From assembly GCA_025353965.1 (NCBI GenBank), contig JANXNS010000036.1, forward strand, positions 1 through 46,104: a stretch of DNA of 46,104 nucleotides. Direction: 5' to 3'. The stretch's first letter is position 1. Each line of letters opens with the position of its first letter. The DNA is from Aquihabitans sp. GTDB taxonomy: Bacteria; Actinomycetota; Acidimicrobiia; Acidimicrobiales; Iamiaceae. Below are positions 5,168 to 5,274 of this stretch, piece after piece. The notes below the pieces were generated by a model. The model did not search any database, was not told the origin of the DNA, and saw only the letters and a program-made list of their open reading frames with translations. The position numbers and the translations under genes are program-made.

Positions 5168-5207
5168 AAAACGAAAGAAGCTCCCGGCCCGAGGGCGCAG
5201 GAGCTTC
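5168..5207 (-). terminator. leuA attenuator terminator
   Basis: Read on the minus strand, GAAGCTCC (5207-5200) pairs perfectly with GGAGCTTC (5184-5177), with a further short GCC/GGC stem inside the loop. It is followed at once by TTTCGTTTT (5176-5168). This is a textbook intrinsic terminator placed between the leader peptide and the leuA start codon (5125), so read-through decides leuA expression. Confidence 0.85.
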
Positions 5208-5239
5208 GGCACGTGCCGCAACGCGGCGGGTCACGTGCC
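5208..5239 (-). promoter_or_regulatory. leuA leader hairpin preceding the terminator
   Basis: On the minus strand GGCACGTG (5239-5232) pairs with CACGTGCC (5215-5208). Inside it GCCGC/GCGGC (5227-5215) can form a small inner stem. The upstream arm starts at the last base of the leader peptide stop codon TAG, so a ribosome on the leader would mask it. It abuts the terminator stem directly. I could not define a convincing alternative antiterminator pairing by eye. Confidence 0.65.
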
Positions 5240-5274
5240 TACGTAAGCAGAAGGACGGGGGTGGTCGGATGCAT
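5239..5274 (-). CDS. leuA leader peptide MHPTTPVLLLT
   Basis: An 11-codon reading frame (ATG at 5274, TAG ending at 5239) encodes MHPTTPVLLLT, with three consecutive leucine codons (CTT CTG CTT) just before the end. Its place between a good promoter and a hairpin/terminator upstream of leuA is the arrangement expected of a transcription-attenuation leader: scarcity of charged Leu-tRNA would stall the ribosome on the Leu triplet. An AGGTG lies 5 nt upstream of the ATG, but the -10 box (5280-5285) is so close that the leader may instead be translated from a leaderless transcript. Confidence 0.85.
   Translation of the reverse strand: MHPTTPVLLLT

Follow-up and report, generated by a model that had tools for sequence, protein, structure and literature searches.

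The leuA upstream region

The window, as we refer to the whole 46,104 nt stretch of Aquihabitans sp. DNA that was analysed, carries on its minus strand a leuA gene (3419–5125) for a 2-isopropylmalate synthase of the yeast/actinobacterial type (NCBIfam TIGR00970, 833 bits, and NF002991, 873 bits). The encoded LeuA is 89 % identical to that of Aquihabitans sp. G128, a close relative in the Acidimicrobiales with a leuA leader (L003) of the type described below. Between leuA and the amidohydrolase-like gene upstream of it (5306–6490, also minus strand) is a compact element made up of a short leader ORF, two hairpins, referred to here as P1 and T, and a U tract. The leuA start at 5125 is 51 nt past T. 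A preliminary description of this DNA had placed a complete leucine attenuator at 5168–5274. These coordinates are exact, and all of the parts that were named are present and conserved in relatives. The element itself occupies 107 nt, and the packing into about 140 bp given in that description holds if the -35 box is counted.

The leader ORF (5239–5274, minus strand, as for all features below) begins with the ATG at 5274 and encodes MHPTTPVLLLT, the 11-residue peptide originally read from it. The three consecutive Leu codons (CTT CTG CTT, 5245–5253), which are the putative regulatory codons, are followed by a single ACG and by the TAG stop codon at 5241–5239. Folding places the first arm of P1 (5208–5239) against the leader stop, as had been noted, with the G of TAG, the last base of the stop codon, used in the first pair. 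T (5177–5207) follows P1 with no spacer and begins 31 nt past the stop codon. It is predicted to be the intrinsic terminator claimed earlier, on the basis of its fold, its covarying stem and a terminator-like site found at this position by consensus scan, and is followed by the U tract TTTCGTTTT (5168–5176). The 5′ arm of T contains a pause-like TGC-G (5196–5199) that would put the RNA 3′ end 11 nt from the base of P1; the pausing function is presumed.

A promoter containing TTGACA had also been proposed. The -35 box is indeed present (5304–5309) and is kept in the leaders of relatives, but the -10 box of the window copy is weak. The candidate -10 region, TTAGGTG (5279–5285), was assigned by position only and is uncertain, and a consensus scan returned no sigma-70 site. 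The TGA stop codon of the amidohydrolase-like gene (5308–5306) falls inside the TTGACA of the leuA promoter.

Folding of P1 together with T gave -46 kcal/mol (z = -6.0), a value equalled by none of 200 shuffled sequences. Because shuffled sequences do not reach this fold and relatives have the same structure, with compensatory changes, the element is not a product of chance. No Rfam covariance model matched the window at its gathering threshold, and the best matches to the element region on the minus strand (E values of 0.7 and 3.1) were unrelated. From its sequence and that of its relatives, we conclude that the element is very probably a ribosome-mediated transcription attenuator.

Distribution and conservation of the element

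The yeast-type leuA was found in 59 of 99 related genomes, and 46 of the leuA upstream regions examined share the leader, P1 and T. Most of the remaining regions have a leader that resembles, as judged by eye only, the published LEU element considered below. A covariance model trained only on these 46 leaders, all from one leuA type, matched 232 of the 395 genomes of the class (E value cut-off 0.001) and, in a search across the phylum, 46 of 396 genomes (cut-off 0.0001), 16 of them outside the class. Among the leuA loci from named genomes, 71 of 80 carry the element.

The preliminary description had suggested a covariation analysis across related genomes, and had named loss of the Leu run and the stems in relatives as evidence against its reading. 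Both are conserved, and changes in the P1 and T stems are strongly compensatory. RNAalifold applied to the 46 leaders found compensatory changes in 12 of the 16 pairs of P1 and T. When 66 distinct sequences were aligned independently, double compensatory changes were seen at each of the 10 P1 pairs, with 95.7 % of cells able to pair. The covariation score for P1 and T in the 66 sequences was 0.589, compared with 0.210 after shuffling and approximately 0.1 when the partner was slid, values that lean towards the model because the alignment was fitted to it.

The geometry of the element is also preserved. In 110 of 114 leaders, the last sense codon directly follows three Leu codons, and the single codon between the run and the stop, recorded for 115 distinct leaders, specifies Thr (54), Met (31), Val (12) or another residue (18). 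Leader length varies from 10 to 37 residues. In all 114 leaders, the start of P1 is within 2 nt of the stop codon on either side (-2 to +2). The gap from P1 to T is 0 in 67 of the 114, 2–5 nt in 32 and at most 5 nt in 113. The remark made for the window copy, that hairpin and terminator abut without clear overlap, applies to its relatives too; an overlap was found in none of the 114 leaders, nor in any of the larger set of 127. The distance from T to leuA ranges from 38 to 130 nt, unlike the tight spacing of leader, P1 and T. Throughout the family, the 10 nt after T include a median of 7 T residues. In many relatives, the 3′ arm of T often reads AGGAGG, which matches a Shine-Dalgarno sequence perfectly and is also complementary to the run of Leu codons.

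Where TTGACA was found (65 leaders), it lies 35–38 nt before the start codon in 52, and -10 hexamers of the form NANNNT start at -16 to -13 from the start codon in 56 of 62 leaders. Together, these positions imply a 5′ UTR of approximately 0–4 nt in relatives. Hence, the leader is probably translated almost without a 5′ UTR, as had been suggested for the window copy.

The spacer between P1 and TGYG is exactly 11 nt in 42 of 114 leaders. Hairpin-stabilised pauses have 11–12 nt between the hairpin and the RNA end, and the pause consensus is Y-1 G+1 (PMC12288461, PMC9291695). P1 may therefore act as a pause hairpin that holds RNA polymerase at TGY-G, though the 11 nt spacing could also be explained by common descent. 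The motif CAUA, often as CACAUA, is present in 46 of 114 P1 loops, compared with 1.7 expected after shuffling, and is found before both leuA types. Leaders with this loop include L006, L007, L014, L040, L169 and L176, and the P1 of the window does not have it. No pairing partner was found for the CAUA of the P1 loop, and a role of P1 purely as a spacer leaves it unexplained.

Downstream genes and the identity of the codon run

Within the class, the copies fetched precede the bacterial-type leuA (TIGR00973), the yeast-type leuA, leuS and ilvB. Fourteen weaker matches were also fetched, 13 of them from outside the class, and 13 of the 14 are directly before leuS, leuA (two protein types) or ilvB. 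The codon run tracks the gene. Leu codons are found before leuA and leuS, and a mixed Leu/Val/Ile run, for example CTC GTA CTT ATC, is found before ilvB, in the same frame and place as the Leu run of the leuA leaders. Because the runs follow the gene, it is likely that the codons are read by the ribosome as the signal, and this is the strongest sequence evidence for it. The comparative evidence supports the leader, the codon identity, P1, T and their geometry.

The ilvB gene of the window genome (L193, G000:C225) is preceded by the leader MKTLTRLVVVPT and its stop codon, a hairpin starting at the stop and then a terminator-like hairpin. We note that this leader contains three GTA codons, and that a pair of codons lies between its run and the stop where the leuA leaders have one. 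No such leader was found within 330 nt upstream of the leuS gene of this genome, and a search of the genome with the covariance model returned the leuA copy only, together with a chance match (E value 1.7). Three genomes (G172, G216 and G226) have two leuA genes that differ in type, and a separate copy of the leader precedes each (L170/L171, L182/L183 and L184/L185, respectively).

Approximately 85 % of the Leu codons in leaders are CTC or CTT (CTT approximately 39 %), compared with 50 % (CTT 12 %) in seven genes of the window, and TTA is absent. The preference for CTC and CTT suggests that the leader Leu codons are read by one Leu tRNA.

Search for a base-paired antiterminator

In classical attenuation, the 5′ arm of the terminator is sequestered in a 2:3 antiterminator when the ribosome is stalled. 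Pairing of the T 5′ arm before the T 3′ arm exists was assessed by partition-function folding in stalled, at-stop and no-ribosome states. The ribosome was placed on the fourth-last regulatory codon for the stalled state (S) and on the stop codon for the at-stop state (R), with 12 nt masked from the A site. The Escherichia coli controls gave S and R values of 0.62 and 0.01 for trp, 0.60 and 0.01 for leu, and 0.82 and 0.01 for thr. However, the hisL control (0.64 and 0.64) was not discriminated and the test is not infallible.

In the leader family, the median pairing of the T 5′ arm was 0.21 in S compared with 0.38 in R, and S exceeded R by more than 0.1 in only 1 of 114 leaders. For the 13 weaker matches the values were 0.25 and 0.41, with no case in which S exceeded R by more than 0.1. 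The classical 2:3 antiterminator was rejected on this basis, as the T 5′ arm is not sequestered in the stalled state and the E. coli trp, leu and thr controls were recovered.

A permutation test of 14 segment pairs (drawn from the Leu run, the arms and loop of P1, and the arms and loop of T) showed coupled arms in P1 (z = -28) and in T (z = -21), and no other coupling. One of the 14 pairs tested, the P1 loop and the 3′ arm of T, was matched in strength by 8 of 200 permutations. Two further pairings looked good by eye and were discarded, namely the P1 3′ arm with GYGCC in the T 5′ arm (z = +0.5, and the wrong sign) and the last sense codon of the leader paired to the P1 loop (AUGU/ACAU, z = +0.1). 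The Leu codons are complementary to the 3′ arm of T (-8.9 kcal/mol), a pair that cannot be judged by permutation because both sides are invariant. A stalled ribosome would block this pairing, and the sign of regulation would be wrong.

Taken together, these folds and permutations make it likely that the element has no base-paired antiterminator. As neither the window copy nor any of the relatives examined has the classical antiterminator helix, the mechanism probably does differ from the classical one, as the preliminary description had supposed. The description of the attenuator as complete holds for every part that it named, and does not extend to this helix. In equilibrium folding, P1 and T coexist without conflict and T is predicted in nearly every state. 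A physical block of T is therefore an assumption of what follows.

A proposed mechanism and its alternatives

The reading that we prefer, a leucine-responsive two-hairpin attenuator of leuA, of a widespread type, in which P1 drives a squeeze between ribosome and polymerase, is put forward as a proposal whose chance of being right as a whole falls slightly short of even. Regulation of leuA by leucine and every dynamic step of the mechanism are what we infer. The transcript would begin at the leader AUG or only a few nt away, and the leader would be translated by a ribosome. When charged tRNA-Leu is plentiful, the ribosome would reach the stop codon, where its footprint would lie over the whole P1 5′ arm and keep P1 open; T would then fold freely and transcription would end before leuA. 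When leucine is short, the ribosome would stall shortly before the stop, on the Leu codons, and P1 would fold at its leading edge. Folded P1 would take approximately 25–30 nt out of the path from ribosome to polymerase, and completion of T would need this path to be squeezed to 20–29 nt of single-stranded RNA, so that T would fail and leuA would be reached by readthrough. P1 may also hold the polymerase at the TGY-G pause during the decision. The last step, steric failure of T as written, is somewhat more doubtful than even. That the element represents a class of attenuator with no antiterminator, in which the hairpin at the leader stop is a foldable spacer that pulls a stalled ribosome against the polymerase, is possible and more tentative still.

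Footprint arithmetic is the basis for the role given to P1. A ribosome at the stop covers the P1 5′ arm, and one stalled on the Leu codons covers at most the first 3 nt of P1; P1 would therefore report on completion of the leader. When the ribosome is stalled on one of the last four codons and both P1 and T are folded, the single-stranded path from the P site to the polymerase active site is 20, 23, 26 or 29 nt, compared with 41.5 nt when the ribosome is at the stop and P1 is open. Published work (PMC11711091) places the functional collision of ribosome and polymerase at 28–29 nt and reports collided conformations up to a distance of 37 nt. Relative to these limits, which are from E. coli, T could be completed in the stalled state only by forcing a collision, on arithmetic that leaves out the helix widths (perhaps 2–3 nt each) and is borderline for a stall on the first of the four Leu codons.

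P1 could itself be the antiterminator, hindering completion of T from directly upstream, possibly within the RNA exit channel or at its mouth and with help from pausing or NusA/NusG. A ribosome at the stop would then merely remove P1, and readthrough would need no stalled ribosome. The abutment of P1 and T in 67 of 114 leaders agrees with this, as does the hairpin-stabilised pause geometry of the 42 leaders with 11 nt from P1 to TGY-G, and the conserved CAUA loop suggests that P1 may be recognised. However, folding gives P1 and T together, the gaps of 2–5 nt in 32 leaders indicate that direct contact is not required, and full expression would be predicted whenever the leader is not translated, unlike in known amino acid attenuators. 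We consider this explanation unlikely. To a similar degree, we doubt that P1 is mainly a pause hairpin that holds polymerase close to the ribosome (compare trp 1:2), with antitermination left to a weak or over-conserved alternative helix or a tertiary contact. Here, the 11 nt from P1 to a TGYG that fits the Y-1 G+1 consensus would be accounted for. The complementarity of the Leu codons and the T 3′ arm, both conserved and beyond the reach of the permutation test, could supply such a helix, and the P1 loop with the T 3′ arm is a marginal candidate for one, at 8 of 200 permutations in one of the 14 pairs. However, the co-transcriptional test that recovered E. coli trp, leu and thr shows nothing in the leader family, and a stalled ribosome would prevent the Leu run from pairing with T, a pairing that would also have the wrong regulatory sign.

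The excess of CAUA in P1 loops (46 leaders, with 1.7 expected after shuffling) could also mean that a protein binds P1, for example via this loop, and that leader translation is secondary. There is precedent for the idea in what Seliverstov et al. (PMC1262725) put forward for the LEU element. As CAUA is missing from more than half of the leaders, including that of the window, while the codon run is almost invariant and follows the target gene, we regard control by such a protein as very improbable. Lower still is the probability that T is a constitutive partial terminator behind a small upstream ORF and is independent of leucine, as the codon identity tracks the pathway of the downstream leuA, leuS or ilvB in several classes. 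If true, the preferred squeeze of ribosome against polymerase would make the element a simple translation sensor, the spacing of which is freely adjustable. The element would also offer a natural test of whether termination is controlled by physical contact between ribosome and polymerase.

Comparison with known leaders

The element has the general features of ribosome-mediated attenuators, namely a leader ORF with a codon run and a predicted terminator between leader and gene. It is not of the classical trp type, and is neither a LEU element, a member of an Rfam leader family, nor an example of direct block as in pyrBI and tlrB. Like the enterobacterial trpL, leuL, thrL and hisL, it combines a codon-run leader ORF with an intrinsic terminator before a biosynthetic gene, and its stop codon is placed so that a ribosome there opens the downstream arm. 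It differs from them in having no mutually exclusive antiterminator, with the T 5′ arm free in the stalled state, in a leader almost without a 5′ UTR, and in a run that ends exactly one codon before the stop. The tandem two-hairpin arrangement is very probably a form of ribosome-mediated attenuation that departs from the classical definition at the antiterminator.

Two-hairpin ilvB leaders, for which antiterminators were proposed, are the ilvB-II motif of Corynebacterium (PMC10272879) and the ilvB1 attenuator of Mycobacterium tuberculosis (PMC13236596). These are also branched-chain amino acid leaders with two hairpins, P1 and P2, of which the second is an intrinsic terminator. However, the uORF of ilvB-II spans P1, with an antiterminator proposed between the P1 loop and a terminator arm (PMC10272879), whereas P1 in the window begins where the uORF ends and pairing of its loop with T is at most marginal by permutation (8 of 200, among 14 pairs). 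In Bacillus subtilis tlrB/yxjB (PMC6851288) and E. coli pyrBI (PMC5021804), the ribosome blocks completion of the terminator without an antiterminator. These share with our proposal the lack of an overlapping antiterminator, a ribosome that would prevent completion of the terminator, and polymerase pausing. The difference is that in tlrB and pyrBI the ribosome footprint itself reaches the terminator, whereas T in the window is 31 nt past the stop and unreachable unless P1 is folded. No description of the tandem P1–T arrangement was found in the part of the literature that was covered, or in Rfam.

Leucine leaders before actinobacterial leuA, including leaderless ones, are already known, but have been described without a terminator. 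The leuL1 of Streptomyces lividans is a leucine leader before leuA (PMC8079986). The LEU element is described before leuA in most Actinobacteria, with a leaderless leader peptide that contains a Leu run, a pseudoknot that pairs the Leu codons with the leuA Shine-Dalgarno sequence, and no obvious terminator (Seliverstov et al. 2005, PMC1262725). The gene and the leaderless peptide with its Leu run are shared with the window element, which differs, by that description, in its strong predicted terminator and the hairpin at its stop codon. The same source reports that the effects of mutations in the leuA leader of Streptomyces coelicolor did not agree with classical attenuation, although the S. 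coelicolor leader belongs to another type than the leader in the window. The parts of the present element are clean and compact, and it is found in hundreds of genomes, before leuA, leuS and ilvB, with tight spacing and no competing helix.

Distant relatives in the same order (L044, L046, L050, L051 and L053–L056) have a different leuA leader, for example MVDRLLVLRLIRPAF and CTGCGACTTA...CCCGGC, with no T-type terminator. Hence, one gene in one order has two leader types, and the second, by eye only, resembles the published LEU element. Public records titled Bifidobacterium breve, Thermoanaerobacterales and Dehalococcoidia (L119, L121, L079, L108 and L120) share the leuA and its leader, and are probably mislabelled metagenome bins.
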